A DNA stretch of 64,000 nucleotides from Rhizobium sp. EC-SD404. Lineage in GTDB: Bacteria > Pseudomonadota > Alphaproteobacteria > Rhizobiales > Rhizobiaceae. The notes under the pieces are model-generated. The model worked only from the letters and a program-made list of their open reading frames with translations, ran no database searches and was not told the origin of the DNA. Made by a program: the position numbers and the translations under genes. Below are positions 3,007 to 17,016 of this stretch, in pieces. Position 1 is the first letter of the stretch. The number at the start of each line of letters is the position of its first letter. The DNA lies in assembly GCF_902498825.1 (NCBI RefSeq), contig NZ_LR701458.1:1-64000 (forward strand), in the 5' to 3' direction.

Positions 3007-3011
3007 GATGA

Positions 3012-3479
3012 TCAGACCGCGATGTTGGTGTCAGCCTGCGGCGGTTTGCGCAGGTGCAAAAGGTGAACGATGGCGGCTCCGGCGAAACCGAAGAACGCTG
3101 CGCCAAGGAAAATCCAGAACGGAATGCCGAGCGTCGGCGTCGCATTCGCAAGGTTGCGCGATATGTTGGTCGCCGTGACGTAACCCATGAAGCCTGTCGC
3201 CGCTAAGGCGCTGAGGGAGATCAGCAAGTTCAGCATGCGCTTCGGCCGATCCGGAAGTGCTGCCTTGAACTCGCCCATGACAATGTTCTCGCCGTGCTCC
3301 ACGACGAGCGGGTAGGCGCAGAAGATCAGGCAGATCAGCAGGAAGCGGGTGAACTCTTCAGCACCGATGAACGGCAGGACGAAGACGCCGCGCATGATCA
3401 CCTGTGCCGTCGGAACAAGCACGAGGCCGGCCATGATGATGACCACGAAGACGGTCAGGATACGTTCGGGAAGACGCAT
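3012..3479 (-). CDS. dctQ: TRAP transporter small permease (DctQ)
   Basis: Small integral-membrane subunit that pairs with DctM. It is 155 aa with four predicted helices: residues about 8-30, 42-60 (including AEEFTRFLLICLIF, the usual DctQ signature region), 85-105 and 120-142. The C-terminal tail is cytoplasmic and basic. It lies between dctP and dctM in the same orientation. The 72-base gap to dctP contains a strong stem-loop. Confidence 0.92.
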   Translation of the reverse strand: MRLPERILTVFVVIIMAGLVLVPTAQVIMRGVFVLPFIGAEEFTRFLLICLIFCAYPLVVEHGENIVMGEFKAALPDRPKRMLNLLISLSALAATGFMGYVTATNISRNLANATPTLGIPFWIFLGAAFFGFAGAAIVHLLHLRKPPQADTNIAV

Positions 3480-3496
3480 GGGTCGTGCTCCATCAT

Positions 3497-3525
3497 GTGC
3501 CCGGCGGCAGGTCGCCGCCAGGCAC
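3497..3525 (-). promoter_or_regulatory. Stem-loop between dctP and dctQ
   Basis: GTGCCCGGCGGC at 3497-3508 faces GCCGCCAGGCAC at 3514-3525 around a five-base loop. The one mismatch on the plus strand becomes a G-U pair in leftward RNA, so the helix is continuous only in the transcript of this operon. No U-run follows. It probably limits 3' decay or read-through and so raises the binding-protein mRNA relative to the permeases. That role is inferred. Confidence 0.6.
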
Positions 3526-3551
3526 GTTTGGAATGGATGAAGATCAGGCGG

Positions 3552-4541
3552 TTATTCGACAGCCTGAATCTGCTCGATGAGCGGTGTGAAGGTCGGGAAG
3601 TCCTGAGCGATCTGAGCACTCACGCCTTCTTCGAAGGCGGCGAGATCCAGACCTTCAGCTTCCGTGATGACGGTCATGCCGCGGCCCTTGAGCTCCTCGA
3701 CGAGTTCAGCTTCGCCTTCCGTCGCCATCTGCAGAGACTTTTCCGCTTCCTCGTCGAGCACCGTGGTGATGGCAGTGCGCTGCTCTTCGGTCAGTCCCTG
3801 CCAGACTTCCTCGTTGACGAAGACGGCGAGCACGGCCCGCATGTGTCCGGTCATCGAAACGTGTGACTGAACCTCGTTGAGGTTGTTGGAAGTGATCATC
3901 GTCAGCGGGTTTTCCTGGCCGACGACGACGCCCGTCATCAGCGCGGTCGGCAGCTCGGCCACTTCAACCGGCGTCGGAATGGCGCCGAACCCTTTGACCA
4001 TCGAGACCCAAAGCTCGAGCGGCACGGCGCGGAACGGCTTGCCTGCCAGATCTTCCGGGGACTTGACCTCGAAATTGGACGAGATGTGGCGATCGCCGCG
4101 ATAGATGCGGCCGATGATGCGTACACCCTGCGCAATGAGCTGCTCGTTGATGGCCTGCAGCGCCGGTGACGTGTCAGGGTCGGTTGCAGCGAGCGCATGG
4201 GCGCCGTCGCGGTAGATGAAAGGCGCGTTGAACACGGCGACTTCGGGAACGAGGCGTGCGAGCGACGCGAAGTCGTGGTGACCCATGGAGATCGACCCCA
4301 TCCGGACGCCGTCGACCATCTCGGCGACGCCGCCCAACTGGCTGGCCGGGTAGACCGTCAGGGTGACTTCGTCGTTGGTGGCGGCGGCAATGCCTTCGGC
4401 TGCCTGCGTCGCGAAGATCGTCTGGATGTCACCCTCGGCGCCCACATGCGCATAGCGCAGTTCGGCGGCCGATGCCGCACCGGTTAAGGTCAGCGCGATG
4501 GCCGCGCCGGTCAAAAGGTTGATGATGGACTTGTGTAGCAT
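3552..4541 (-). CDS. dctP: TRAP transporter substrate-binding protein (DctP family)
   Basis: Periplasmic solute receptor of 329 aa. A Sec signal peptide covers about residues 1-25 (hydrophobic core ending ASA before AELRYAHVG). The mature part shows DctP hallmarks: a VTLTVYPASQLGG strand, a GFGAIPTPVEVAELPTAL region that usually contains the carboxylate-binding arginine environment, and GQENPLTMI. Members bind sugar acids, dicarboxylates or related anions. The linked RpiB-type isomerase and GntR regulator suggest a sugar acid or polyol-derived ligand, but the sequence does not settle this. Confidence 0.92.
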   Translation of the reverse strand: MLHKSIINLLTGAAIALTLTGAASAAELRYAHVGAEGDIQTIFATQAAEGIAAATNDEVTLTVYPASQLGGVAEMVDGVRMGSISMGHHDFASLARLVPEVAVFNAPFIYRDGAHALAATDPDTSPALQAINEQLIAQGVRIIGRIYRGDRHISSNFEVKSPEDLAGKPFRAVPLELWVSMVKGFGAIPTPVEVAELPTALMTGVVVGQENPLTMITSNNLNEVQSHVSMTGHMRAVLAVFVNEEVWQGLTEEQRTAITTVLDEEAEKSLQMATEGEAELVEELKGRGMTVITEAEGLDLAAFEEGVSAQIAQDFPTFTPLIEQIQAVE

Positions 4542-4588
4542 GTTGAAAATCCTCCCATTCGTTCATGCTGGTTGAGTAGGCCAGTTAC

Positions 4589-5329
4589 TTAGATCTGCGG
4601 CCTCCTGGTGAAGGCCGAGATGAGGCTCCGGCGACGGAATTCGTCGCCGATCGAGAAATGGTCCCTGAGCTTGCGGTCGGCCGCATCCGCGTTCCTGTCG
4701 ACGATCGAAAGGAACACCTCCCGATGTGCCTCGACCAGGTAATCGACGATGCCCGGCTCCGAGATCGTCACTTCACGTCGCTGCACGTGGCTTCGACGCA
4801 GCAATTCGCCGATCGCGCCGTAGAGCGTGGTCAACGCCTCGCTATGGCCCGCCTCGACGATCGCTTGGTGGAACGCGAAATCGGCGGCGGCGCCTTCAAC
4901 GGGGTCGTGCAGCGTGTCCATCAGCCGGGTGAGTTTAGAGCCGATACCCTTGAGATCGCTTTCCGTCGCGCGGGCACAGGCAAGCCGGATGGCCTGGCAC
5001 TCGATCGCGACACGCGCCTGCATGACGTCGTCGAGAATGTCGGGCTGCTGGGCGAGGCTGAAGGTGAAGAAATCCGAGAGCACGGTGATATCTGCCTGGC
5101 GCACATAGGCGCCCTTGCCGTGGCGGATATCGAGAAAGCCGAGCATCGCGAGCGAACGCAGCGCTTCGCGCAGGAGTGGACGGGAGATGCCAAGCGACAG
5201 CGAGAGTTCACGCTCGCCGAGCAGCCGCTCGCCGGGCTTCAGCGAGCCATCGATCAACGCGTCGCGGAAGAAGCCGAACACCTTTTCGGCACCCGAGACG
5301 TCGCTGTTCTCGGCAAGCATCGTGGACAT
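4589..5329 (-). CDS. GntR-family regulator, FadR/FCD subgroup
   Basis: Ligand-controlled DNA-binding protein of 246 aa. A winged helix occupies residues about 15-80, with the family pattern PGERLLGERELSLSLGISRPLLREALRSL. An all-helical FCD effector domain follows, in which the metal/ligand histidine pattern (FHQAIVEAGHSEAL, later HREVF) can be seen. The start at 5329 is chosen because GGGAGGGG-like Shine-Dalgarno bases precede it; an in-frame ATG at 5356 would begin beside the operator. It is the first gene of the unit with dctPQM and rpiB, so it probably controls its own operon through the palindrome at 5360-5372. Confidence 0.92.
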   Translation of the reverse strand: MSTMLAENSDVSGAEKVFGFFRDALIDGSLKPGERLLGERELSLSLGISRPLLREALRSLAMLGFLDIRHGKGAYVRQADITVLSDFFTFSLAQQPDILDDVMQARVAIECQAIRLACARATESDLKGIGSKLTRLMDTLHDPVEGAAADFAFHQAIVEAGHSEALTTLYGAIGELLRRSHVQRREVTISEPGIVDYLVEAHREVFLSIVDRNADAADRKLRDHFSIGDEFRRRSLISAFTRRPQI

Positions 5330-5359
5330 CGCAGATAAGCCCCTCCCAGTGGCCATACT

Positions 5360-5372
5360 GTGGTCTGACCAC
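5360..5372. promoter_or_regulatory. Probable GntR/FadR-type operator
   Basis: GTGGTCTGACCAC is a perfect 13-base inverted repeat around a central T. FadR-subgroup GntR proteins typically bind TGGT-N(2-3)-ACCA, and the core TGGTCTGACCA fits. It lies about 30 bases upstream of the gntR start and inside the divergent region shared with the DeoR gene. Confidence 0.7.
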
Positions 5373-5489
5373 TGATCTCTCAACTTAGACCTCGCTGTCA
5401 AGTCACCGATTGTTTCTCCGAGATCGCGTTTCCATCGTCCACAGGCCGACCGATTGACCGACCCCAAAACAATCACTAATGATCATGCC

Positions 5490-6308
5490 ATGGAGAACGA
5501 GCGCGGACGGGAGATAAGGTTTCCGCAGGAACGTCATCGCAAGATGGCGGATCTCATCGCGCTGCGTGGCCATATTAGCGTCGACGAACTCATCGAGACA
5601 TTCGCGGTATCGGGGCCGACGGTTCGTCGTGACCTGGATTTTCTTGCGCGCGCGGGCATCGCCGTGCGCACTCATGGCGGCGTGACCGCGTCCGACCGGG
5701 CAGCGGGGCAGGAGCCGCTCTTCATGGAGAAGCTTCGCCGGCAGCAATCGGCGAAAAGCACCATTGCCCAGGCTGCCGCGCGCCACGTGGAAAACGGCAT
5801 GCGGGTGACGCTCGATTCCGGTACCACGGCGCTGGCGCTTGCACGGCTACTCGCAGGCAAGTCCATCAGGATGACCGCGACCGACATCAAGGCAGCCGAA
5901 ATCGCCGCCACCGGCGATACCGAGGTTGTCATTGCCGGCGGTACGTTGCGCAACGGCTATTTCAGCATCGTCGGCGATGAGACCGCAGCCGCGATCGCGG
6001 CCCAGCCAACGGCCGACATCTTCTTCCTCTCCGCCGACGCGGTGGACGGCAGCGGCGTGTCGAACGTCACCATCGAAGAGGCGCGCGTGAAGCGTGCGGC
6101 CATCGCAAATGCAAAGCGCACGGTGCTGATCGCCGACCATACCAAACTCGATCGGCGCGAGCCGGCGGAGGTGTGCGCCTGGGGCGCCATCGACCTGTTC
6201 ATCACTGACCGCCACTCAGGCGCCGTCGCCCAGTCTTATGCAGGCGCGGCGACCCGAGTGGAACTATGCGGCCCCGGTCCGGGCAAAGAAGGAAAAACAA
6301 AAACATGA
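5490..6308 (+). CDS. DeoR-family transcriptional regulator
   Basis: Sugar-catabolism regulator of about 272 aa. The N-terminal DeoR helix-turn-helix covers residues about 8-62 (pattern ISVDELIETFAVSGPTVRRDLDFL followed by HGGV). The C-terminal DeoR sensor domain resembles a sugar-phosphate isomerase and contains DSGTTALALARLLAG and a KRAAIANAKRTVLIADHTK segment. ATG 5490 is preferred over TTG 5454. Its stop overlaps the next start by 4 bp (ATGA), so it leads the rightward operon and is the likely repressor. The probable inducer is a phosphorylated sugar made by that operon. Confidence 0.92.
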   Translation: MENERGREIRFPQERHRKMADLIALRGHISVDELIETFAVSGPTVRRDLDFLARAGIAVRTHGGVTASDRAAGQEPLFMEKLRRQQSAKSTIAQAAARHVENGMRVTLDSGTTALALARLLAGKSIRMTATDIKAAEIAATGDTEVVIAGGTLRNGYFSIVGDETAAAIAAQPTADIFFLSADAVDGSGVSNVTIEEARVKRAAIANAKRTVLIADHTKLDRREPAEVCAWGAIDLFITDRHSGAVAQSYAGAATRVELCGPGPGKEGKTKT

Positions 6309-7114
6309 AAAAGTTCAGCGCGCTTTTCGGCGGCACCAAGCCCGTCATCGCCATGGTGCACCTGGCCCCCATGCCGGGGACGCCGCTTTACGACGCCGAA
6401 GGCGGGGTCGAGGCGATTGTCGAGGCCGCACGCCGCGATCTCAAGGCGCTGCAGGATGCCGATGTCGATGCCGTGATGTTCGGCAATGAGAACGACCGGC
6501 CCTACGAACTCGAGGTCGACACCGCCTCGACCGCAACGATGGCCTTCGTGATCGGCCAGTTGCGCAAGGATATCCAGAAGCCGTTCGGCGTGAACGTCCT
6601 ATGGGACCCGATGGCATCCGTCGCGCTCGCGACCGCAACCGGTGCATCCTTCATGCGCGAAATCCTGACGGGCACCTATGCGTCCGACATGGGACCCTGG
6701 ACGCCGAATGCCGGCAAGGCCATGCGCTACCGCGATCGCCTGGACCGGTCGGACTTGGTGATGCTCGCCAATGTCTCGGCCGAATTCGCCTATTCGCTCG
6801 ATCGCCGCGACCTGTCCGACCGTGCACGCTCCGCGGTCTTCTCGTCGATACCCGACGCGATCCTCGTATCGGGAGCCATCACCGGGGAGGCAGCCGAGAT
6901 GGCCGACCTCGTCGCGGTTAAGAAGGTTCTTCCCGATACCCCGGTCCTTGCCAACACCGGGGTCAAGCATTCGACCATCGCCGACGTTTTCAAGGTTGCC
7001 GATGGCTGCATCGTAGGATCATCTCTGAAAGTGGACGGCGATACGTGGAAGGCCGTCGATGCCGCACGGGCCGCCGAGTTCATGCGGCTTGCCAAGGCCG
7101 CTCGAGGAGATTGA
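6305..7114 (+). CDS. BtpA/SgcQ-family TIM-barrel protein
   Basis: 269-aa protein of the BtpA family, named after a cyanobacterial photosystem I biogenesis protein and including E. coli SgcQ. It begins MKKFSALFGG with the family signature KPVIAMVHLAPMPG at residues about 11-24. Later motifs are MFGNENDRPY, GVNVLWDP, FMREILTGTY and the phosphate-binding-like end ANTGVKHSTI ... DGCIVGSSLKVDG. The fold resembles phosphate-binding TIM barrels. No reaction is established for the family. It lies in a sugar-kinase/transporter operon directly after a DeoR gene, with a 4-bp overlap. A catabolic aldolase, isomerase or hydrolase role is inferred, not shown. Confidence 0.88.
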   Translation: MKKFSALFGGTKPVIAMVHLAPMPGTPLYDAEGGVEAIVEAARRDLKALQDADVDAVMFGNENDRPYELEVDTASTATMAFVIGQLRKDIQKPFGVNVLWDPMASVALATATGASFMREILTGTYASDMGPWTPNAGKAMRYRDRLDRSDLVMLANVSAEFAYSLDRRDLSDRARSAVFSSIPDAILVSGAITGEAAEMADLVAVKKVLPDTPVLANTGVKHSTIADVFKVADGCIVGSSLKVDGDTWKAVDAARAAEFMRLAKAARGD

Positions 7115-7118
7115 TGGC

Positions 7119-8102
7119 ATGAATGCCAGGCGCGACACGACGACCCAATACACGATCGGCCTGGGCGTGCTCGCGCTGGCGATCTTCGTGACGCTGACCT
7201 TTTACGCACCGAACTTCCTGTCGCGCGCCAACATCAATTCGATGGGGTCGCAGTTTCCGGAATTCGGTCTTCTGGCGCTCGGACTGCTCCCGGCGATGAT
7301 CACCGGCGGCATCGATCTTTCGGTGGTCGCCATTGCCAATCTGGCATCGATCGTCGCTGCTCTGCTCCTCGGCGCCGGGCCTGGATACGCCTTGCTGGCT
7401 ATCCCGGCCGCGCTTCTCACCGGTCTCGCTTGCGGGGTATTAAACGGCTGCCTCATCGCCTATCTGCGGCTACCGCCGATCCTGGCGACGCTCGGGACGC
7501 TGCAACTCTTCGGCGGCATCGCGATCGTCATCACCGGCGGGCCATCGATCACCGGCCTGCCGGCCTGGTACAGCGCCTGGGGAACCTGGTCGATCGGCGG
7601 GTTCCTTCCGGTGCCGCTGATCGTCTTCACCATCGTCGCGATCTGTATGGGTCTGTTCCTGCGCTTGTCCGCAACCGGCATACGGGCCAGGCTCTATGGC
7701 GCAAATCCGCTCGCGGCGCGCTTCGTCGGCATCCAGGAGCGCAAGCTCGTCATCAAGATCTACGCGACCGCCGGCGTCATCGCCTCCATCGCCGGTCTGG
7801 TGATCCTGGCGCGCGCCAATTCAGCGACCGCGGACTACGGTGCGTCCTACCTGCTGCTGGTCATCCTCATCAACATCCTCGCCGGTGTCAGCCCGTTCGG
7901 CGGCGTCGGGTCGACCATGGGTGTCGTGCTTGCGGTAATCACCCTGCAGCTCATTTCGTCCGGCCTCAACTTCCTCGCCTTCACGGCCTTCACCCGCGAC
8001 CTTTTCTTCGGCGGCCTGCTCATTGCCATCATGTCGATCCGCGTCATCGCGGAAGGCCGGTTGGGCGATTTCAGGGCGCTCATCTCAAGACGGCAGACAT
8101 GA
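7119..8102 (+). CDS. Sugar ABC transporter permease 1 (RbsC/LsrC-like)
   Basis: Membrane subunit of 327 aa with 8-10 predicted helices, in the branched-chain/ribose permease family. The conserved region MITGGIDLSVVAIANLASIV lies at residues about 50-70, and a NPLAARFVGI loop followed by LILARANSATADYG lies further on. GAGGAGA precedes the ATG at 7119. The start is 4 bases after the btpA stop, and the stop overlaps the M42 gene by 4 bp. It probably forms a heterodimer with the second permease at 13290-14303, as LsrC does with LsrD. Confidence 0.9.
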   Translation: MNARRDTTTQYTIGLGVLALAIFVTLTFYAPNFLSRANINSMGSQFPEFGLLALGLLPAMITGGIDLSVVAIANLASIVAALLLGAGPGYALLAIPAALLTGLACGVLNGCLIAYLRLPPILATLGTLQLFGGIAIVITGGPSITGLPAWYSAWGTWSIGGFLPVPLIVFTIVAICMGLFLRLSATGIRARLYGANPLAARFVGIQERKLVIKIYATAGVIASIAGLVILARANSATADYGASYLLLVILINILAGVSPFGGVGSTMGVVLAVITLQLISSGLNFLAFTAFTRDLFFGGLLIAIMSIRVIAEGRLGDFRALISRRQT

Positions 8103-9199
8103 CCCAGCAATTGCGCAAAGACCTCCACGACCTGATGCTCATCCCCGGCCTTTCCGGCCATGAGGACCGGGTGCGCCGCCATCTGCGTGACCTGATGGAG
8201 AAGGAAGGCTTCGACTGTCGCACCGATACGCTCGGCAACCTGATCGCGACCCTCGATGGCGACGAGGGCGCGCCGAGCGTGATGCTGTTTGCTCACACCG
8301 ACCAGTTGGGCTTTGTGGTGCGCAAGATCGAGGCCAGCGGCCTGATCCGCGTCGAGCGGCTTGGAGGCATCCCCGAAAAGGCGCTGCCGGCACAGAGCGT
8401 GCTTCTGTGCGTCGGCGAAGGCCGCGACGTGAAGGGGATCATCGCCAACAAGAGCCACCACGCCACCCCGCCGGAAGAGAAGTACAAGGTCACGCCCTAC
8501 GCCGAACTCTTCATTGATATCGGTGCGGAAAGCGCCGACGCCGTGCGCAAGCTCGGCATCGAGATCGGTACGGCGGTCGTTTACGAACCCAACGTCTTCG
8601 ATCTCGGCGAGCATCGCGTTGCCGGCACGTCGGTGGACGACCGGGCCGGCTGCGCCGTCATCGTGGAAGCCGCACGCCGGCTGAAGAAGGAAGCGTCGCG
8701 CCCGACGGTTCATTTCGTCTTCGCCGTCCTGGAAGAATTCAACCTGCGTGGCGCAATGGTGGCAGCGCAGGCGCTGCGACCCGACATCGCGATCCAGCTG
8801 GATCTCGCTCTGACGTCGGATACGCCGGACATGGCCCATCGCGGCGAAGTGCATATGGGCGCCGGCCCTGCGATTTCGCATTACTCGTTCCATGGACGCG
8901 GCACGCTCAACGGCACGATCCCGCATCCGGCGGTTGTCGACGCGGTGCAGCGCACCGCCAGCGAAGACGGCATCCCGCTGCAGCACACCGCCCATGTCGG
9001 CGCGCTGACCGATTCCTCCTACGTTCAGCTGGTCGGCGAGGGCGTCGCCTGCGTCGATCTATGCTTCCCCAGCCGCTACACGCATACCTCGCTCGAAGTT
9101 TGCGACATGCGTGATCTCGAGGGTCTGACCGCGCTCGTCACGGGCGCCATCACCCGCATGGGAACCGGCTTCGATCTGGACAGGGACAGCTATACATGA
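8099..9199 (+). CDS. M42-family metallopeptidase homologue (SgcX/FrvX-like)
   Basis: 366-aa cytoplasmic dinuclear-metal hydrolase of the M42 glutamyl-aminopeptidase/endoglucanase-M family. All metal and catalytic positions appear intact: His66 and Asp68 in FAHTDQLG, a bridging Asp in SVDDRAG (180-181), the Glu-Glu pair 212-213, Asp235 and His329 in SRYTHTS. The usual EExGLRG motif here reads EEFNLRG. Some M42 members are peptidases, but E. coli SgcX and FrvX sit in sugar operons with unknown substrates. Its place between a permease and a sugar kinase argues for an acylated or amide-linked sugar substrate. It overlaps both neighbours by 4 bp. Confidence 0.88.
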   Translation: MTQQLRKDLHDLMLIPGLSGHEDRVRRHLRDLMEKEGFDCRTDTLGNLIATLDGDEGAPSVMLFAHTDQLGFVVRKIEASGLIRVERLGGIPEKALPAQSVLLCVGEGRDVKGIIANKSHHATPPEEKYKVTPYAELFIDIGAESADAVRKLGIEIGTAVVYEPNVFDLGEHRVAGTSVDDRAGCAVIVEAARRLKKEASRPTVHFVFAVLEEFNLRGAMVAAQALRPDIAIQLDLALTSDTPDMAHRGEVHMGAGPAISHYSFHGRGTLNGTIPHPAVVDAVQRTASEDGIPLQHTAHVGALTDSSYVQLVGEGVACVDLCFPSRYTHTSLEVCDMRDLEGLTALVTGAITRMGTGFDLDRDSYT

Positions 9200-10698
9200 G
9201 CCGCGCCTTCCTCGGGATCGATATCGGGACCTTCGAGACCAAAGGCGTCGTCGTATCGGACGAGGGCGCGATCCTGGCGTCGGCGCGTCGCGCGCACCGT
9301 ATGATCGTGCCGCGCGCCGGCTGGGCCGAGCACGATGCCGAGGTGAATTGGTGGCAGGAGTTTCGCGACATCGCCCGCGAGGTGATCGCGGCGTCCGGGC
9401 TCCCCGCATCGGCGATTGCCGGCGTTGGAGCAAGCGGCATCGGCCCTTGCATGCTGCCGGTGGATGAAAAAGGCGCGCCGTTGATGAACGCCGTGCTTTA
9501 CGGCGTCGACACGCGTGCCCATGCCGAAATCGAAGATCTCACCGCAAAAATAGGGGAAGAGACGCTGTTGCGGCGCACCGGCAACGGTCTGACGTCCCAG
9601 TCCGTGGGGCCGAAGATCCTGTGGCTGAAGCGCAATCGGCCGGAGATCTACGAAAAGGCCGCAGGCTTCGTGAATTCCTCCACCTTCCTCGTCGAGCGGC
9701 TGACCGGAGAGCGCGTGCTCGACCATTATTCGGCGGCAAGCTTTTCGCCGCTCTACGACGTCTCGACCAATGACTGGGCCGACGATCTCATGGACGGCAT
9801 CGTCGAGCGTGACCGCCTGCCGCGTCTCCTGTGGTCTTCGGATATCGCCGGCCATGTCACGCAATGGGCTGCCGAGGAGACCGGTCTGGCCGAAGGCACG
9901 CCCGTCATTGCGGGAACCATCGATGCGGCTGCCGAGGCTTTGAGTGTCGGTGTTTCACGCCCCGGCGAGATGATGCTGATGTATGGCTCCACCATTTTCA
10001 TCATCATGGTCACCGACAAGCCGTCGCAGGACGCCCGTCTGTGGTATGCGCCATGGCTCTTTGCCGGCCGCCACGCCATCATGTCCGGCCTGGCGACGAG
10101 CGGAACGCTGACGCATTGGTTCCGCGATCGCTTTGCCCGTGAATTGCCTCCAGAAGACGCGATGCGAAAGCTGGCAGAAGAGGCAGCGGCGACGCCGGCA
10201 GGAGCCAATGGCCTTTTCGTACTGCCCTATTTCTCGGGCGAACGCACGCCGATCCATGACCCGCACGCCAAGGGCATGATCTTCGGGCTCGATCTCACGC
10301 ATGAGCGCGGCGACATCTACCGCGCGGTGCTCGAGGGGATCGCCTATGGCGTGCGGCACGTGCTGGAAACATACGGCGAGACCGGCAATGCGCCTTCCAC
10401 TATCACTGCGGTCGGCGGCGGCGTGCGCAACACCGTCTGGCTTCAGGCTGTTTCAGATATTTCCGGCAGCGCGCAGACGCTGCGCCGGGAAAGCTTCGGA
10501 GCGAGCTATGGCAGCGCCTTTCTTGCTGCGATCGGCACGGGCGCGGCAAGCGAGGGCGACATCGACACGTGGAACCCACCCGCCGGGCATATCGATGCGG
10601 ATCGCGCCTTGGCGCCGCTCTATGGCCACGGGTTCAAGACATATCGTGGCCTCTACGAGGCGACGCGGAGCTTCATGCACGCCGAGCGCAGGGCATGA
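9196..10698 (+). CDS. FGGY-family carbohydrate kinase
   Basis: ATP-dependent sugar kinase of 500 aa, the normal length of the family. The N-terminal FGGY domain begins FLGIDIGTFETKGVVV (first phosphate-binding loop). The presumed catalytic aspartate lies in AGTIDAAAEAL near residue 240. The C-terminal domain carries the adenosine-site pattern AVGGGVRNTVWLQAVSDI. Family substrates include xylulose, ribulose, glycerol, erythritol and AI-2, and sequence alone does not tell them apart. The start overlaps the M42 stop by 4 bp. It likely phosphorylates the sugar imported by the surrounding ABC transporter or released by the M42 enzyme. Confidence 0.93.
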   Translation: MSRAFLGIDIGTFETKGVVVSDEGAILASARRAHRMIVPRAGWAEHDAEVNWWQEFRDIAREVIAASGLPASAIAGVGASGIGPCMLPVDEKGAPLMNAVLYGVDTRAHAEIEDLTAKIGEETLLRRTGNGLTSQSVGPKILWLKRNRPEIYEKAAGFVNSSTFLVERLTGERVLDHYSAASFSPLYDVSTNDWADDLMDGIVERDRLPRLLWSSDIAGHVTQWAAEETGLAEGTPVIAGTIDAAAEALSVGVSRPGEMMLMYGSTIFIIMVTDKPSQDARLWYAPWLFAGRHAIMSGLATSGTLTHWFRDRFARELPPEDAMRKLAEEAAATPAGANGLFVLPYFSGERTPIHDPHAKGMIFGLDLTHERGDIYRAVLEGIAYGVRHVLETYGETGNAPSTITAVGGGVRNTVWLQAVSDISGSAQTLRRESFGASYGSAFLAAIGTGAASEGDIDTWNPPAGHIDADRALAPLYGHGFKTYRGLYEATRSFMHAERRA

Positions 10699-10742
10699 GT
10701 GGGGAACGGCCTTCCCGAAAGGCTACAACAGGGAGAGTGAAC

Positions 10743-11738
10743 ATGGCGTTTGGTTTGAAGAAGATGCTGATGGGAGCGGCAGCCGTTTCCGTTCTCGCCG
10801 GTGGTGTTGCGATCACTGCCAACGCGCAGGACACCCGCGAGATCGTCACCGTCGTGAAGCTGTCGGGCATCGCATGGTTCAATCGCATGGAAGAAGGCGT
10901 GCAGCAGTATGCCGAGGCGACCGGCAACAATGCCACGCAGGTCGGCGCGGCAACGGCTGACGCAGCCCTTCAGGTCCAGCTCATCGAGGATCTGATCGCA
11001 CGCGGCGTCGATGCCATCACTGTGGTGCCGAACTCGCCACAGGCGCTCGAGCCCGTCCTGGCCCGTGCGCTCGAGAACGACATCGTCGTCATCGGCCACG
11101 AAGGCGCAACGCTGGAGAACGTGACTTACGATCTCGAAGCCTTCGACAACGCAGCCTATGGCGAGCATCTGATGGAAGCACTGGCGACCCAGATGGGCGG
11201 CGAGGGCGAATACGCCGTATTCGTCGGCTATCTGACGTCGGTGACCCACAACGAGTGGGTCGACGCGGCGATTGCCTACCAGGAAGAAAACTATCCGAAC
11301 ATGACGCTCGTCGGCGGCAAGCAGGAGTCTGCAGAACAGCAGCAGACTGCCTACCAGAAGATGCGCGAATTGCTGCGCACCTACCCCGACATCAAGGGAA
11401 TGCAGGGCTCCGCCGGTGAAGATGTGGTCGGCGCAGCACTCGCAGTCGAGGAAGCTGGTCTGTCCGACCAGGTTTCGATCGTCGGTACCAGCCTTGCGTC
11501 TGTTGCCGGACCTTACGTCGAAACGGGCGAAATCGATCTCATTTCGTTCTGGGACCCGGCACTCGCCGGCTATGCCATGAACGTTTTGGCAGAAAAGGCT
11601 TTGAACGGCGAAACGGTTGCAACCGGTGACGACCTCGGCGTCGATGGTTACAACGAAGTGCGTGTCGACGGTAAGGTCGTCTACGGTCAGGCATGGGTCG
11701 ACGTTACGGCCGACAACCTGGACGAATACGACTTCTAA
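10743..11738 (+). CDS. LsrB/RbsB-like periplasmic sugar-binding protein
   Basis: 331-aa binding protein with a Sec signal peptide (residues 1-28, ending ITANA). The mature protein is a Peripla_BP_4 sugar receptor. The start of the mature region (REIVTVVKLSGIAWF) and the end (NLDEYDF) resemble LsrB, the AI-2 receptor. The corresponding lysine (Lys39) is present, but the positions that are Asp and Asp-Gln in LsrB appear as GHEGA and VTHNEW here. The ligand is therefore probably not AI-2. This comparison was made by eye from memory. A stem-loop follows the gene. Confidence 0.92.
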   Translation: MAFGLKKMLMGAAAVSVLAGGVAITANAQDTREIVTVVKLSGIAWFNRMEEGVQQYAEATGNNATQVGAATADAALQVQLIEDLIARGVDAITVVPNSPQALEPVLARALENDIVVIGHEGATLENVTYDLEAFDNAAYGEHLMEALATQMGGEGEYAVFVGYLTSVTHNEWVDAAIAYQEENYPNMTLVGGKQESAEQQQTAYQKMRELLRTYPDIKGMQGSAGEDVVGAALAVEEAGLSDQVSIVGTSLASVAGPYVETGEIDLISFWDPALAGYAMNVLAEKALNGETVATGDDLGVDGYNEVRVDGKVVYGQAWVDVTADNLDEYDF

Positions 11739-11747
11739 GAGGACAAC

Positions 11748-11777
11748 ACGGGGCTGCCGCATCCGTGGCGGCCCCGT
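11748..11777 (+). promoter_or_regulatory. Stem-loop between binding-protein and ATPase genes
   Basis: ACGGGGCTGCCGC at 11748-11760 pairs with GTGGCGGCCCCGT at 11765-11777 around an ATCC loop, with G-U pairs in the upper part. It begins about 10 bases after the binding-protein stop and lacks a U-run. It is more likely an mRNA-stabilising or partially attenuating hairpin than a full terminator, because transporter genes continue downstream. Confidence 0.6.
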
Positions 11778-11802
11778 ACCATCAATCTGACTCGGAGCCC
11801 CG

Positions 11803-13293
11803 ATGTCCGACCCCGTTCTTCAGATCGACGGCATTCACAAAGCCTATGGCCCCGTTCAGGTGCTCGCCGATGTGGCGCTGACCTTGCAGGCGGGCGAAGT
11901 GCGCTGCCTTGCGGGCGAAAACGGATCCGGCAAGTCGACGCTGATCAAGATCATGTCGGGCGTGGTGCCGAAGGACGCCGGGACGGTCCGCATCGCCGGA
12001 CACGATCTGTCCAATGACCCGACTGCTGCCATCAACGCAGGGCTGTCGGTCATCTATCAGGATTTCTCGCTCTTCCCTAATCTCACCGTCGCCGAGAACA
12101 TCGCATTCCTGCGCAGCGTTGCGCGTGGTGATCGCTGGCACCGGCGGGGCAGTGACCGGCAGATCGCAGCCGACACGCTGAAGCGCATGGGCGTCGAAAT
12201 CGATCCCGCGCTGCCGGTCGAGTTCCTGCCCGTCGCCTCCAAGCAATTGATCGCGATCGCGCGCGCGCTCGCCAACGACGCGCGCATCATCGTCATGGAC
12301 GAGCCGACCACCGCCTTGACGCGCAGCGAAGTGAAGCGCCTGCAGGGTATCATCGAAGCGCTGAAGAAGGATGGCGTCGCGTTCCTGTTCGTCAGCCACA
12401 AGACCGAAGAGATATTCGCCTTCTGCGACACGATCACCGTGCTGCGCGACGGACGAGTCGTCTCGCAAGGCAATGCAGACGAATTCGACGCCGATCGCCT
12501 CGGCCGCGATATGACCGGCCGCGATATAGAGACCCATCGTCTTCCGCGTGAGCTCGCGCCTTCAGCAGCGCCGATCATGGCGACACGCGGCCTGACACGG
12601 CACGGCGTCTACTCCAATGTCGATCTTTCGATCGCGCCGGGCGAGATCGTTGCGCTTGTCGGCCTGCTCGGGTCCGGGCGAACGGAACTGGCTCTGTCTC
12701 TCTTCGGGCAGATCGAGCCGGACGAAGGTGCGATCGAATTCAAGGGCATTGTCCGCCGCTTCCGCGAACCACTGGAAGCAATGGACGCGGGGATCGCCTA
12801 TGTGCCCGAAGATCGCCTGACGGAGGGATTGTTTCTCGACCAGCCGATCGGCGACAACATCTCGGTGGCGTCCCTGAAGCAGTCGGGAATCGTGGATCGC
12901 TCGGCATTGCGCGAGCGGGCGCGCGAGGCGGTCAAGCGCTTGCGCATCAAGACGCCCGGCATCGAACCTTCGGTGGCGACCCTGTCCGGCGGCAACCAGC
13001 AGCGCGTGGTCCTTGCACGCTGGATGGAACGCAATCCCGAACTGATGATCCTCAACGGTCCGACGGTCGGTGTCGACATCGGCTCCAAGCGCGAGATCCA
13101 CGAAATATTGCTGGATCTGCGCAAGAGCGGCACCGCTGTACTCGTCGTCACCGACGATCTCGGCGAGGCGCTGGCGCTTTCCGACCGTATACTCGTCATG
13201 GTACGCGGACGGATCACGGGTGAGTTCAAGGCCGACGAGATTGACGAGGAACGGCTGTCGCTTGCCGTGACCGAGGAGGCACCGGCACGATGA
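11803..13293 (+). CDS. Sugar ABC transporter ATP-binding protein (RbsA/LsrA-like, two ABC domains)
   Basis: 496-aa cytoplasmic ATPase with two fused nucleotide-binding domains, typical of ribose/rhamnose/AI-2 importers. The first Walker A is GENGSGKSTL and its Walker B is IIVMDEPTTAL. The second domain has a degenerate P-loop, LLGSGRTELA, followed by the signature LSGGNQQRVVLARWM. The degenerate second site is normal for this class. It is followed by permease 2 with a 4-bp overlap. Together with both permeases and the LsrB-like receptor it forms a complete importer. Confidence 0.94.
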   Translation: MSDPVLQIDGIHKAYGPVQVLADVALTLQAGEVRCLAGENGSGKSTLIKIMSGVVPKDAGTVRIAGHDLSNDPTAAINAGLSVIYQDFSLFPNLTVAENIAFLRSVARGDRWHRRGSDRQIAADTLKRMGVEIDPALPVEFLPVASKQLIAIARALANDARIIVMDEPTTALTRSEVKRLQGIIEALKKDGVAFLFVSHKTEEIFAFCDTITVLRDGRVVSQGNADEFDADRLGRDMTGRDIETHRLPRELAPSAAPIMATRGLTRHGVYSNVDLSIAPGEIVALVGLLGSGRTELALSLFGQIEPDEGAIEFKGIVRRFREPLEAMDAGIAYVPEDRLTEGLFLDQPIGDNISVASLKQSGIVDRSALRERAREAVKRLRIKTPGIEPSVATLSGGNQQRVVLARWMERNPELMILNGPTVGVDIGSKREIHEILLDLRKSGTAVLVVTDDLGEALALSDRILVMVRGRITGEFKADEIDEERLSLAVTEEAPAR

Positions 13294-14303
13294 ATGCCGC
13301 CACACGCATGTTCATGTCGCCTCAAGGCGTGGTGCTGATCGCAGCCTTGCTGTTTGCGCTCGTCGTCGGCTTCATCAACCCCAATTTCCTGTCGCTCGCG
13401 ACGGTCATCGATCTGTTGCGCAATTCGCTGGTGACCGCGATCTTTGCGCTCGGCGTCATGATGGTGCTCGCCTCGGGCGGCATCGACGTGTCGTTTCCTG
13501 CGATTGCCGCCTTCGCCATGTACACGACCATGTCGATGGTTCTCGGCGTCGATTTCGACGTGCCGATCGTCGCGCTGTTCGTCGTCAGTGCCGCCATCGG
13601 CGCGTCACTCGGCCTCGTCAACGGCATTCTGATCGGCGGGCTCGGCCTGCCGACGCTGATCGTCACGCTTGGCACGCTCAGCCTGTTTCGCGGCGCGCTT
13701 CTGACATTCGTCGGCACGACTTACATCACCAACGTCCCGCGCAACGTCATCTCGTTTGCGCGCACGATGATCGTGCGTATGGAGAACGCGGTGGGTCAGC
13801 TCGCCTCGCTGCCACTGTCCTTCGTCGTCCTTGTCGGCGTCACCGCCTTCGTCGCCGTCATCATGAACCTCACCAAGTTCGGCCGCGCGATCTACGCGAT
13901 CGGCGGATCGGAAGAGGGGGCACGACGGATCGGCATCAAGGTCGGCCGCACCAAGGTGCTCATCTACGTGATCGTCGGTGCGATCGCCGGCCTCGCCGGC
14001 ATGACCCACATGACACTGTCGCGCATGGCCAACCCGTTCGATCTCGTCGGCATGGAACTGAACGTCATCGCTGCCGTCGTGCTCGGCGGCGCGCGGATCA
14101 CCGGTGGTCACGGCACGGTCACAGGCACCCTGCTTGGCGCGCTTTTGATCACGATGATCAACACGTCTCTGCTCAGCGCGGGCGTGCCGTCCTATTGGCA
14201 ACGCGTCGTCGTCGGCGCCCTCATCATCATCGGTACCGGTCTGCCGATCGTCATCGATCGGCTGGCCAAGCGCCGCGAGCGCCTGGCACAGGCTGCGGTT
14301 TGA
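13290..14303 (+). CDS. Sugar ABC transporter permease 2 (RbsC/LsrD-like)
   Basis: 337-aa membrane subunit with about ten helices and the family segment VMMVLASGGIDVSFPAIAAF at residues about 50-70. GSEEGARRIGIKV is the conserved cytoplasmic loop that contacts the ATPase. It starts inside the end of the ATPase gene (ATGA overlap) and is followed after 22 bases by dhaK. Two different permease genes flanking the receptor/ATPase pair suggest a heterodimeric channel. Confidence 0.92.
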   Translation: MNAATRMFMSPQGVVLIAALLFALVVGFINPNFLSLATVIDLLRNSLVTAIFALGVMMVLASGGIDVSFPAIAAFAMYTTMSMVLGVDFDVPIVALFVVSAAIGASLGLVNGILIGGLGLPTLIVTLGTLSLFRGALLTFVGTTYITNVPRNVISFARTMIVRMENAVGQLASLPLSFVVLVGVTAFVAVIMNLTKFGRAIYAIGGSEEGARRIGIKVGRTKVLIYVIVGAIAGLAGMTHMTLSRMANPFDLVGMELNVIAAVVLGGARITGGHGTVTGTLLGALLITMINTSLLSAGVPSYWQRVVVGALIIIGTGLPIVIDRLAKRRERLAQAAV

Positions 14304-14325
14304 AATTCGGGAAGGAGCCCAAACT

Positions 14326-15324
14326 ATGAAGAAGATTCTGAACAACCCGGCCGACTATGTGGACGAGATGCTGGAGGGCTTCGTCGCCGCGCATCCCGAG
14401 TTTTACGCCCAGCCGGAGCGGCGCGTGATCGCGCGGCCGGAAGGTGCCACAACCGGCAAGGTCGGCATCGTGAGCGGTGGCGGATCGGGCCATCTTCCGG
14501 TCTTCACCGGCTATGTCGGTCCCGGCTTCCTCGACGCCTGCGCCGTTGGCGACGTGTTCGCGAGCCCCTCTGCCGAGCAGATGGCGAGCGCCATCCGTCA
14601 TGCCGATGGCGGCGCCGGTGTCCTGCGGCTTTACGGAAACTACGGCGGCGACGTCATGAACTTCGACATGGCCGGCGAGATGGTCGACATGGAAAACGAC
14701 ATCCGCACGACCACCGTGCTTCTGGCCGACGACATCGTCTCGGCCGGCAAGGACGAAGCGGAAAAGCGCCGCGGTGTCGCCGGTATGATCTATGCGTTCA
14801 AGATCGCCGGCGCCTGCGCCGATACCAAGGCCGATCTCGACGAGGTCACGCGCGTGGCGCAGAAGGCGGCCGATGCCTGCCGCTCGATCGGCATGGCGCT
14901 GACGCCCTGCATCGTGCCGCAGGCCGGCAAGGCCAATTTCGAGCTCGGCGAGAACGAGATGGAAATGGGCATGGGCATCCATGGCGAACCGGGCATCTGG
15001 CGCGATGCGCTGCGTCCGGCCGACCAGATCGTCGACGAGATGATCGACCGGATCCTTGCCGACCGTCCCTTCTCGAAGGGCGACCGGCTCTCCGTCCTCG
15101 TCAATTCGCTCGGCGCGACGCCGCTCGAAGAGCTCTACATCATGTACCGCAAGGTGAAGCAGCGCTTCGACGACATCGGTGCCGAGATCGTCATGCCGCT
15201 CGTCGGGCGCTACGCGACCTCCATGGAGATGACCGGCGCGACCATCACGACCATCGCTCTGGATGAAGAGCTCGAACGCTACCTCCATGCGCCGGCGGCC
15301 TGCGCCTATTGGCGCGTCGGGTGA
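14326..15324 (+). CDS. dhaK: Dihydroxyacetone/tetrulose kinase subunit DhaK
   Basis: Substrate-binding subunit of a DhaK-type kinase, 332 aa. The residues known from E. coli DhaK are all present: His56 in GGGSGHLP, Asp109 in YGNYGGDVMNF and the covalent substrate-binding histidine, His219, in GMGIHGEPG. GGAGCC precedes the ATG. The gene follows permease 2 and precedes dhaL. No dhaM (PTS phosphodonor) gene is visible, so phosphate may come from ATP, as in the erythrulose kinases (LerK/DerK types). Dihydroxyacetone and D- or L-erythrulose are the plausible substrates; choosing between them is inference. Confidence 0.92.
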   Translation: MKKILNNPADYVDEMLEGFVAAHPEFYAQPERRVIARPEGATTGKVGIVSGGGSGHLPVFTGYVGPGFLDACAVGDVFASPSAEQMASAIRHADGGAGVLRLYGNYGGDVMNFDMAGEMVDMENDIRTTTVLLADDIVSAGKDEAEKRRGVAGMIYAFKIAGACADTKADLDEVTRVAQKAADACRSIGMALTPCIVPQAGKANFELGENEMEMGMGIHGEPGIWRDALRPADQIVDEMIDRILADRPFSKGDRLSVLVNSLGATPLEELYIMYRKVKQRFDDIGAEIVMPLVGRYATSMEMTGATITTIALDEELERYLHAPAACAYWRVG

Positions 15325-15335
15325 GGGCGAAGATC

Positions 15336-15944
15336 ATGGCGACACTCGACGGCGCGAGTCTCAAAGCGGCCCTGCAGCGGGTGGCTGAAGGTGCCGCGAC
15401 CGCTGCGGCCGAACTCAATGCCGCCGACGGCCAGCTCGGCGATGGCGATCTCGGCATCACGGTCTCCAAGGGCTTCGCTGCGGCGGCGGAGGCTGACCTT
15501 CCCAACGATCTCGGCATGGCATTCCTGGAATGCTCGAAAGCCTTCCAGCGCGTGTCGTCCTCCTCCTACGGCACGCTCGTCGCCACCGGCTTCATGGCGG
15601 CTGCAAAAAGCACGAAGGGCTCGGAAAGCCTCGAAGCCTCCGCGATCCCGGCGCTGGTCGCTGCGGCGCGGGACGCAATGATGGCGCGCGGCAAGGGCGA
15701 GCTCGGCGCCAAGTCGGTGCTCGACAGCCTCGATGCGTGTGCAAAAGCGATCGAGGGCGCAGACGCCGCCGAGATGGGCGAGACGGCCGTCGCAGCCGCC
15801 CGCCAGACGCTGCAGGACTTCAAGGGCAAGCCCTGCAAGCTCGGCCGCGCCCGGATGTTTGCTGAGAAGAGCGCTGAACTCGACGACCCCGGCCAACTGG
15901 CGTTTCTGCGCATCGTCGAAGCAGCCGTTCCAGCGGCCAAATAG
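15336..15944 (+). CDS. dhaL: Dihydroxyacetone/tetrulose kinase subunit DhaL
   Basis: Nucleotide-binding subunit of 202 aa, all-helical DhaL fold. The magnesium-binding aspartates Asp31, Asp36 and Asp38 lie in the motif DGQLGDGDLG, at almost the same numbering as E. coli DhaL. SSSYGTLVATGF corresponds to the nucleotide-contacting SGxxG loop. The start at 15336 begins 12 bases after the dhaK stop; an in-frame GTG upstream would overlap dhaK. It partners with DhaK to phosphorylate a short ketose. Confidence 0.91.
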   Translation: MATLDGASLKAALQRVAEGAATAAAELNAADGQLGDGDLGITVSKGFAAAAEADLPNDLGMAFLECSKAFQRVSSSSYGTLVATGFMAAAKSTKGSESLEASAIPALVAAARDAMMARGKGELGAKSVLDSLDACAKAIEGADAAEMGETAVAAARQTLQDFKGKPCKLGRARMFAEKSAELDDPGQLAFLRIVEAAVPAAK

Positions 15945-15954
15945 GAAACAACAC

Positions 15955-17016
15955 ATGCAGTATCGCACGCTCGGCCGCTCGGGCCTGAAGGTTTCCGCCA
16001 TCGCGATGGGGACGTTCTCCTTCGGCGGCAAAGGTGACTTTGCCATGGTCGCCAATCAGGGCGTCGCGGAAGCGCGTCGTCTAGTCGACACCTGCATCGA
16101 CGGTGGCATCAATCTCTTCGACACCGCCAACATGTATTCACTCGGCCGCTCCGAAGAGATCCTGGGCGAGGTGCTGGAGGGCAAGCGCGACGAGGTGCTA
16201 ATCTGCTCCAAGGCGCGCATGAAGATCGGCGACGGGATCAATGACGAGGGCGCTTCGCGCTATCACATCATCCGCGAGTGCGAACGCAGCCTAAAGCGCC
16301 TGCGCACGGACCGTATCGATCTTTATCTGATGCATGAATGGGACGGGCTGACGCCGCTCGAAGAGACGCTCGCAGCGTTCGAAACTCTGCAGGCGCAGGG
16401 CAAGATCCGCTATGCCGGCTGTTCGAACTATGCCGGCTGGCAGTTGATGAAGGCGCTCGGCATCGCCGAACGCGACCGCCTCCCGCGGTTCGCGGCCCAG
16501 CAGATCCACTACACGCTGGAGGCCCGCGAGGCGGAATACGAGCTTTTGCCGATCGCGGTCGACCAGGGCGTCGGCATCATGATCTGGTCGCCGCTCGCAG
16601 CGGGTCTCCTGTCGGGCGCGTTCACCCGCGATACGTTCCCGCAGGATTCACGCCAGGCGGCGGGCTGGTCCGAGCCGCCCATCCGCGACCAAGAGCGTCT
16701 CTGGGCCATCGTCGACGTTCTCAATGAGATTGCAGAAGAGCGATCGCTGACCGCCGCTCAGGTGTCGCTGGCATGGACGCTGTCGCGCCCGGGCATCGCG
16801 ACGCTCGTGACCGGCGGACTGACGCCGGAGCAGTTCCAGCAAAACATCGCGGCAGCATCGGTGGAACTGAGTGCCGCCGAACTTGAACGCCTGAACCAGG
16901 TCAGCCGCCCGCCATACCTTTACCCTTATTGGCACCAACACAATTTCGCCGCCGACCGCTTCAGCCCCGCCGACTGGGCGCTGCACGACAGCTATCGCGA
17001 TCTGGGCAAGATTTGA
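15955..17016 (+). CDS. Aldo/keto reductase
   Basis: NADP-dependent TIM-barrel oxidoreductase of 353 aa. The catalytic tetrad is recognisable: Asp in FDTANMYS, Tyr within the same motif, Lys in CSKARMKIGDG and His in LYLMHEWD. The C-terminal cofactor-binding part contains ATLVTGGLTPEQF. It is 11 bases after dhaL and closes the rightward operon. It probably interconverts a sugar aldehyde or ketone with an alcohol in the pathway. The AKR family is broad, so the substrate is open. Confidence 0.9.
   Translation: MQYRTLGRSGLKVSAIAMGTFSFGGKGDFAMVANQGVAEARRLVDTCIDGGINLFDTANMYSLGRSEEILGEVLEGKRDEVLICSKARMKIGDGINDEGASRYHIIRECERSLKRLRTDRIDLYLMHEWDGLTPLEETLAAFETLQAQGKIRYAGCSNYAGWQLMKALGIAERDRLPRFAAQQIHYTLEAREAEYELLPIAVDQGVGIMIWSPLAAGLLSGAFTRDTFPQDSRQAAGWSEPPIRDQERLWAIVDVLNEIAEERSLTAAQVSLAWTLSRPGIATLVTGGLTPEQFQQNIAAASVELSAAELERLNQVSRPPYLYPYWHQHNFAADRFSPADWALHDSYRDLGKI

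Follow-up and report, generated by a model that had tools for sequence, protein, structure and literature searches.

The locus at positions 5490-17016 of the window (the whole analysed stretch of 64,000 nucleotides from Rhizobium sp. EC-SD404, contig NZ_LR701458.1, positions 1 to 64,000) is a real, conserved sugar operon. It is a variant of the sgc gene set of Escherichia coli without the phosphotransferase system (PTS). Its eleven genes, all on the plus strand, encode a DeoR-type regulator, a protein of the BtpA/SgcQ family, an M42 hydrolase of the SgcX type, an FGGY sugar kinase, an ABC importer, two DhaK/DhaL-like subunits and an aldo/keto reductase (AKR). On balance, and with modest confidence, sequence comparison favours a reading in which this DeoR-controlled operon imports and catabolises one small ketose-type sugar or sugar conjugate, with BtpA acting after the kinase. 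Most likely BtpA would convert the sugar phosphate made by the kinase, and the M42 protein would be a hydrolase acting beside the kinase.

The genes are as follows; the start codons are our choice among the candidates, and each protein has its main Pfam family above the gathering score.

5490..6308, plus strand: DeoR/GlpR-family regulator (Pfam HTH_DeoR, 7.5e-17; DeoRC, 1.2e-36)
6305..7114, plus strand: BtpA/SgcQ-family protein, putative (beta-alpha)8 barrel (PF03437, 258 bits; TIGR00259, 261 bits, cut-off 153)
7119..8102, plus strand: CUT2 sugar ABC permease 1 (PF02653, BPD_transp_2)
8099..9199, plus strand: SgcX-type M42 di-metal hydrolase with the HGRGTL insert and the EEFNLRG motif (PF05343, 258 bits; SgcX match, 216 bits)
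9196..10698, plus strand: FGGY sugar kinase, XylB-like, under the XylB cut-off (PF00370 and PF02782; XylB 309 against 380 bits)
10743..11738, plus strand: periplasmic sugar-binding protein with an AauA-like pocket (PF13407, Peripla_BP_4)
11803..13293, plus strand: CUT2 ABC ATPase with two ABC domains (PF00005, ABC_tran, two stretches)
13290..14303, plus strand: CUT2 sugar ABC permease 2 (PF02653)
14326..15324, plus strand: DhaK-like ketose kinase subunit (PF02733, Dak1, 390 bits)
15336..15944, plus strand: DhaL-like kinase subunit (PF02734, Dak2)
15955..17016, plus strand: AKR (PF00248, Aldo_ket_red)

According to the coordinates, adjacent genes overlap by 4 bp at four joints, deoR/btpA (6305-6308), permease 1/M42 (8099-8102), M42/FGGY (9196-9199) and ATPase/permease 2 (13290-13293), and the six remaining gaps are 4, 44, 64, 22, 11 and 10 bp. 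Thus the eleven genes likely form a single transcription unit. An initial annotation, made from the sequence of the locus, had described eleven same-strand genes with such overlaps, and both the coordinates and the Pfam families bear this out. The gene order is not a matter of chance, since it recurs in relatives: all or part of the CUT2-type operon of the window was found at 24 of 79 named BtpA loci. These named loci come from a search of bacterial and archaeal genomes with the BtpA of the window, which gave 431 loci; the best 80 were kept and are thus biased to close relatives. One of them (L059) lacks a complete btpA frame, so that counts are given out of 79.

The BtpA genes of the order are associated with sugar kinases. 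Among 347 genomes of the window's order, BtpA matches were found in 106 (92 of them over the cut-off) and M42 matches in 157. The 108 strong BtpA loci were taken together with up to 9 kb of flanking sequence on either side, as far as the contigs reach. They exclude the two loci of the window genome, the fragmentary strong matches G486, G529 and G323 C4, and anything that scored no more than 91 bits, and some of the stretches overlap one another (e.g. G337 C9 and G497 C5). An FGGY or PfkB kinase is present within 9 kb of BtpA at 95 of the 108 loci, and at 67 of them the gap is shorter than 300 bp. As a control, a kinase was found in one of 19 arbitrary stretches of the same genomes, or in two of 20 if stretch L220 is counted, which was left out because it overlaps a BtpA locus. 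Matches to ABC transporters or substrate-binding proteins are less specific and occur in 8 of the 20 arbitrary stretches. At the first 100 order-wide loci a sugar kinase was found at 88 and a part of an ABC importer at 90, which fits the original proposal that a kinase and an ABC importer can replace the PTS.

The first 100 loci fall into several types. In 45 of them, which we call polyol-type, BtpA is accompanied by a second FGGY type (40/45), a short-chain dehydrogenase/reductase (SDR; 41/45) and often a HAD protein (26/45), and there is no M42, M20 or TenA-like gene. These operons share DeoR, a BtpA of a sister clade and the FGGY kinase with the window, but have the SDR dehydrogenase, a CUT1 importer and often HAD, and lack M42 and DhaKL. 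The name polyol-type is a putative one: NCBIfam gave only generic SDR and XylB-like scores for these sister operons and was rejected as a basis for assigning a polyol identity. No assigned pathway for them was found in the literature covered. A further 24 loci are of the phosphotriesterase/ribokinase type, with an M20 amidohydrolase in 17 and a TenA-like gene in 8. The remaining loci are of the M42 type (13), have PfkB only (13) or belong to none of these types (5). Of the unlabelled gene clusters, 17 recur in at least five loci, and none of these looked like an aldolase (mostly judged by eye), so that BtpA remains the candidate for the step that follows the kinase.

Annotated plasmid records of Rhizobium leguminosarum, Salipiger, Shinella and Labrenzia agree with the locus types, and a Thermus thermophilus plasmid record has the order DeoR-BtpA-FGGY-SDR-CUT1. 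The ribokinase type is represented in annotated plasmid records of Pantoea, Agrobacterium vitis and R. leguminosarum WSM1325. The window genome itself contains a second btpA gene (G000:C17:85777-86547; 13700-14566 of stretch L003) on the same contig, 21.8 kb past the end of the window. Its product is 28% identical to the first, and its operon encodes a ribose-type ABC transporter and phosphotriesterase-like, GATase1-like, ribokinase-like PfkB and TenA-like proteins; it is thus of the type seen at 24 of the first 100 order-wide loci.

The BtpA protein of the window passes both family profiles (the PF03437 cut-off is 30 bits), whereas it does not reach the photosystem I biogenesis equivalog NF045918 (161 against 400 bits). 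Of 8000 scored candidates, 7773 matched BtpA. In an alignment of 184 sequences, 23 columns have at least 97% identity, and the polar ones among them are H19, N61, D64, R118, R168, D184 and K242. Positions H19, N61, R118, D184 and K242 are conserved in 98-100% of the sequences, and SgcQ has Ser at position 64. These conserved polar residues suggest that BtpA is an enzyme. We take BtpA to belong to the ribulose-phosphate-binding barrels. No solved relative was found by sequence, and the attempt to establish a remote fold by comparing a profile with PDB sequences was given up, as nothing significant was obtained.

The M42 protein of the window belongs, by its sequence features, to the same subfamily as SgcX. 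Compared with three E. coli M42 proteins, it is closest to SgcX (34.6% identity, 216 bits), followed by FrvX (168 bits) and YpdE (129 bits). In the reverse comparison, SgcX matches the window protein better (216 bits) than FrvX (156 bits) or YpdE (137 bits). The insert HGRGTL(N/A) and the motif EEFN(L/I)RG are present in the window protein and SgcX, but not in FrvX and YpdE. The insert occurs in all 13 order-wide M42 proteins encoded near BtpA, in 67 of 68 named M42 frames (the exception is a 111-aa fragment), in all 120 nearest homologues listed and in all five long-type M42 proteins unlinked to BtpA. On the other hand, it was found in none of 15 plain M42 proteins sampled from other loci (our choice among those listed, taken with 300 bp flanks; distance from BtpA was judged by coordinates). 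The positions H, D, E, D and H, presumably the metal ligands, are kept in the alignment with SgcX, FrvX and YpdE. This supports the initial placing of the protein with SgcX.

SgcX-type M42 proteins and BtpA co-occur. Nineteen genomes with a long SgcX-type M42 gene, the window's included, were selected by an alignment length of at least 897 bases among the matches listed (down to about 200 bits), and the motif was afterwards read in every one of them. Each of these genomes also carries a strong BtpA gene (hypergeometric chance 2.5e-12, with genomes treated as independent, which they are not). In five of the 19 the M42 gene lies away from BtpA; an FGGY kinase is near M42 in four of these five stretches, and in all five genomes the strong BtpA is of the clade otherwise found in polyol-type operons. 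In five loci of the Brucella/Ochrobactrum type (L020, L027, L031, L034 and L036) the btpA gene is the last of a polyol gene set and stands opposite a type-A operon without a btpA gene of its own. Both groups of cases suggest that one BtpA can serve two kinase-fed modules; further BtpA copies in the Brucella/Ochrobactrum genomes were not searched for.

The converse does not hold. The btpA and M42 genes are found together at 66 of the 79 named loci, and with a close FGGY kinase at 59. However, only 13 of the 108 order-wide BtpA loci contain M42, so that the expected co-occurrence of the two genes outside sgc stands for the clade of the window BtpA and nearly fails for BtpA overall. An obligate BtpA-M42 pair is thereby ruled out, and the initial view of BtpA and M42 as paired conserved steps gives way to a general link of BtpA to kinases with no need for M42.

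A tree of BtpA proteins (similar rows thinned to 121, midpoint root) places the M42-linked proteins in one clade, together with some rows that lack M42 or are from polyol-type operons. Outward are the Thermus protein and then the polyol clade. SgcQ and the proteins of Sinorhizobium and Phyllobacterium group together outside these, and the ribokinase type is far off. Several long branches are unreliable, and the SgcQ fork is weak in one test (93/31). The link between BtpA and SgcX-type M42, seen both in E. coli and in the clade of the window, has either an ancient origin followed by losses or two separate origins, between which the tree does not discriminate. The BtpA proteins of two plasmid stretches (L224 of Phyllobacterium and L225 of Sinorhizobium) are 68-69% identical to E. 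coli SgcQ. Their genes have as neighbours a PIG-L deacetylase, an alpha/beta hydrolase, a Gfo/Idh/MocA oxidoreductase, a sugar phosphate isomerase-like gene and a CUT1 importer. The annotation tables of these stretches contain no M42 and no kinase adjoining BtpA (the Sinorhizobium stretch holds one further off).

Most of the other named M42 loci have a CUT1 importer instead of the CUT2 type. Some CUT1-type loci additionally encode a ribokinase (310 bits, cut-off 300), an RbsD/FucU-family protein, a creatininase-like protein or an L-fuconolactonase-like protein (205 against 400 bits). A SIS protein just under the 6-phospho-3-hexuloisomerase cut-off (154 against 160 bits) is encoded at L045, 7991-8554, and at 11 other named CUT1-type BtpA-M42 loci. 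A CUT1-type binding protein (L069, 18005-19681; a 557-aa frame with a Tat-like signal by eye) has no Pfam family at E 0.001.

The CUT2 importer of the window comprises a Peripla_BP_4 binding protein, a fused double ATPase and BPD_transp_2 permeases. The description as an LsrB-type ABC importer was thus correct as to the ABC importer, but the LsrB label is loose: with the NCBIfam models the binding protein scores 120 bits for RhaS (cut-off 342) and 110 bits for LsrB (cut-off 384). The LsrK equivalog gives 155 of 528 bits in the operon, and an autoinducer-2 (Lsr) system was rejected, as the LsrB and LsrK cut-offs are both missed. Among solved proteins, 5bra and the D-ribulose-binding protein 9i1m are nearest to the binding protein in sequence. 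The available text of PMC12307932 names 9i1m and reports that AauA binds D-ribulose with a dissociation constant of about 2 uM, the contacts being K37, W43, E118, H167, E196 and S223. Alignment maps these residues to K39, W45, E120, H169, E198 and G225 of the window protein. Five of the six contacts are kept, and Ser is replaced by Gly, in all 21 aligned type-A proteins, the window included. Because the contact positions match those of AauA at five of six, the best guess is a ketopentose-like ligand with a change near C5. In the same text, the Rbl system of Citrobacter rodentium consists of an ABC importer, an FGGY D-ribulokinase and an isomerase. It thus shares the FGGY kinase with the window operon, whereas neither Aau nor Rbl, as described there, includes BtpA, M42 or DhaKL.

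DhaK and DhaL share the Dak1 and Dak2 domains with the two-subunit dihydroxyacetone kinase, and the His residue of DhaK that we take to be carbonyl-binding is kept in all 18 aligned copies. However, no DhaM is encoded among the eleven genes, and the NCBIfam equivalog cut-offs are missed by both subunits (371.6 against 406 bits for DhaK, 64.4 against 138 bits for DhaL). Moreover, a Glu and a Lys of a solved DhaK are replaced by Leu (or Met) and Gly in 17 of the 18 copies, the window having Leu and Gly; the one copy that differs is probably L033's separate DhaK. Genes for DhaK/DhaL are present in 17 of 22 related operons with enough sequence, and were not found in L027, L031, L034, L036 and L037. 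The AKR gene follows dhaL in four of 24 related operons (L005-L008); in the remaining 20 stretches tblastn detected not even a partial copy, though some of them reach no more than about 1 kb past dhaL or are cut earlier. Since DhaKL occurs in 17 of 22 operons with a changed active site, and AKR in four of 24, neither looks like a core step, and the assignment of a short ketose product to these proteins is not supported in its initial form. A scheme in which DhaKL phosphorylates dihydroxyacetone released by an FSA-like BtpA was rejected, given the five of 22 relatives without DhaKL and the changed active site.

Among the closest known systems is the sgc operon of E. coli (sgcXBCQAER). It shares with the window the BtpA family (45% identity), an SgcX-type M42 with the HGRGTL insert and the regulator gene sgcR; SgcR is presumably of the DeoR family, and the E. 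coli record calls it only a putative regulator. The two differ in that sgc has a PTS (SgcABC) and the putative epimerase SgcE, whereas the window has the CUT2 importer, the FGGY kinase and DhaKL, and in that SgcQ lies outside the clade of the window BtpA. No SgcABC or SgcE is encoded by the eleven genes, and no SgcE or SgcC match was found with single-sequence hidden Markov models (HMMs) at the 100 order-wide and 80 named loci. In its available text, PMC13343008 (2026) calls the function of sgc putative, reports its induction on nitrogen-containing carbon sources, and finds that sgc mutants grow without a defect on 190 Biolog carbon sources; the available part of PMC5797941 treats sgc as serving the uptake of an unknown sugar. 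The initial annotation knew of no description of the gene combination found here, and no published pathway for this set was found in the open-licence literature. No papers joining BtpA with FGGY, M42 or SgcX, or citing the family accessions, were found in that literature either. Wider searches of it mostly brought up an unrelated Brucella protein of the name BtpA, or nothing relevant.

The proposed pathway is as follows. The CUT2 importer would take up a ketopentose-like sugar or conjugate via the AauA-like pocket. The SgcX-type M42 hydrolase, beside the kinase, may split off a group, either from the compound as imported or from an intermediate, and the FGGY kinase would phosphorylate the ketose. 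BtpA, as a barrel of the ribulose-phosphate type, would then act on the sugar phosphate as a lyase, epimerase or isomerase and so feed it into central metabolism. Our single best guess for this reaction, though a doubtful one, is an aldolase-type cleavage. DhaK/DhaL, where present, might phosphorylate a short carbonyl sugar arising on the way, and AKR might provide an optional redox step. BtpA would be the step common to the PTS-type sgc, polyol-type and ribokinase-type operons.

Several observations weigh against this proposal. No kinase is visible at 13 of the 108 order-wide BtpA loci, some of them on short contigs. In another class (229 genomes sampled) five strong BtpA genes were found, with a kinase at only one of the five loci, partly on short contigs, which argues against a universal BtpA-kinase rule. 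The HMMs were built in part from BtpA neighbours, the stretches overlap and the loci are related, so that P values are optimistic. The putative barrel and its phosphate site are suggested by the strand pattern and by non-significant matches: the C-terminal part of BtpA matched TrpA-like and GGGP synthase chains at E 0.02-0.6, and an unrelated ribosome-recycling factor scored equally. The photosystem I role of BtpA fits poorly. Finally, if the product of the kinase is ribulose-5-phosphate or xylulose-5-phosphate, the BtpA step would be needless.

In one alternative, a plain D-ribulose-type ketose would be taken up and enter the pentose phosphate pathway via the FGGY kinase, BtpA and M42 being accessory or repair proteins. 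The match of the binding pocket to AauA and the precedent of Rbl as an ABC importer with an FGGY D-ribulokinase are consistent with it. However, Gly takes the place of Ser223 in each of the 21 aligned proteins, the available text of PMC12307932 describes Rbl with neither BtpA nor M42, and the M42-FGGY module is accompanied by BtpA in 19 of 19 genomes. We consider this alternative unlikely. A somewhat better, though still doubtful, possibility is an amide-linked or acylated sugar, where M42 would cleave an N- or O-linked conjugate, the kinase would phosphorylate the freed ketose and BtpA would perform a conjugate-specific step. The metal site of M42 is intact. Amidohydrolases beside other BtpA clades hint at this idea, already raised in the initial annotation, but do no more than that: M20 carbamoylase-type or TenA-like genes are present at 22 of 108 BtpA loci, mostly of the phosphotriesterase/ribokinase type. 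A creatininase-like gene occurs in 12 of 80 named loci, the PIG-L deacetylase adjoins the SgcQ-like BtpA of Sinorhizobium and Phyllobacterium, and the induction of sgc on nitrogen-containing carbon sources would agree with such a substrate. On the other hand, the 45 polyol-type loci of the first 100 contain no M42, M20 or TenA-like gene, and the AauA-like pocket suggests a free ketopentose.

Alternatively, BtpA might not be a pathway enzyme at all but a factor for the folding, assembly or regulation of membrane complexes. The family name and the photosystem I literature point in this direction, as does the E. coli record, where SgcQ is labelled a putative nucleoside triphosphatase. PTS chaperone-like features are mentioned for SgcQ in the available text of PMC13343008. 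Against this, BtpA adjoins kinases of both the FGGY and PfkB types, its polar residues are conserved and NF045918 is missed (161 bits, cut-off 400). We consider a factor of this kind improbable, and retain the conversion of the kinase product by BtpA.

A candidate regulatory site precedes deoR.

5454..5488, plus strand: candidate promoter and operator, TTGACC-18-AATGAT, overlapping the 8-mer TAATGATC

Among the regions upstream of 14 related operons, 11 contain the 8-mer TAATGATC (the window and one near-identical relative are counted), and TAATGATCATG (5477-5488) lies directly before the deoR start, overlapping the possible -10 box. This is suggestive of a DeoR operator in the TAATGATC/TAATGATCATG region. 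However, promoter-like sites are not more common than in shuffled sequences (2 found, 2.6 expected), and the window shows no clear enrichment of the longer pattern TAAYGATCRTTA when two mismatches are allowed (5 matches against 2.4 expected); an operator defined by this longer pattern was thus not accepted.

Upstream of the operon are a divergent TRAP transporter (DctPQM) and a GntR/FCD regulator (1729-5476, minus strand). Downstream, also on the minus strand, are genes for a weakly NMT1-like protein and an FAA hydrolase. These flanking genes look like separate units. A 1627-aa open frame is present at 23670-28553 of the window, minus strand.

The most useful new points are that SgcX-type M42 proteins have a signature and co-occur with BtpA, and that BtpA is broadly linked to sugar kinases in the window's order. 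As two of the sgc protein families occur here without a PTS, in an operon that has an explicit kinase and a binding pocket comparable to a solved ligand complex, the function of BtpA becomes a short bench question. A wider reading, offered tentatively, is that BtpA/SgcQ proteins may be unrecognised sugar-phosphate enzymes, probably C-C lyases or isomerases of ketopentose-type phosphates, forming a node for the polyol-type, ribokinase-type, M42-FGGY and PTS sgc pathways, and that SgcX-type M42 may be a sugar-conjugate hydrolase, not a peptidase, working only in cells with BtpA. Should BtpA prove to be a sugar-phosphate enzyme, renaming would be due for thousands of proteins that now carry a membrane-complex or photosystem name.

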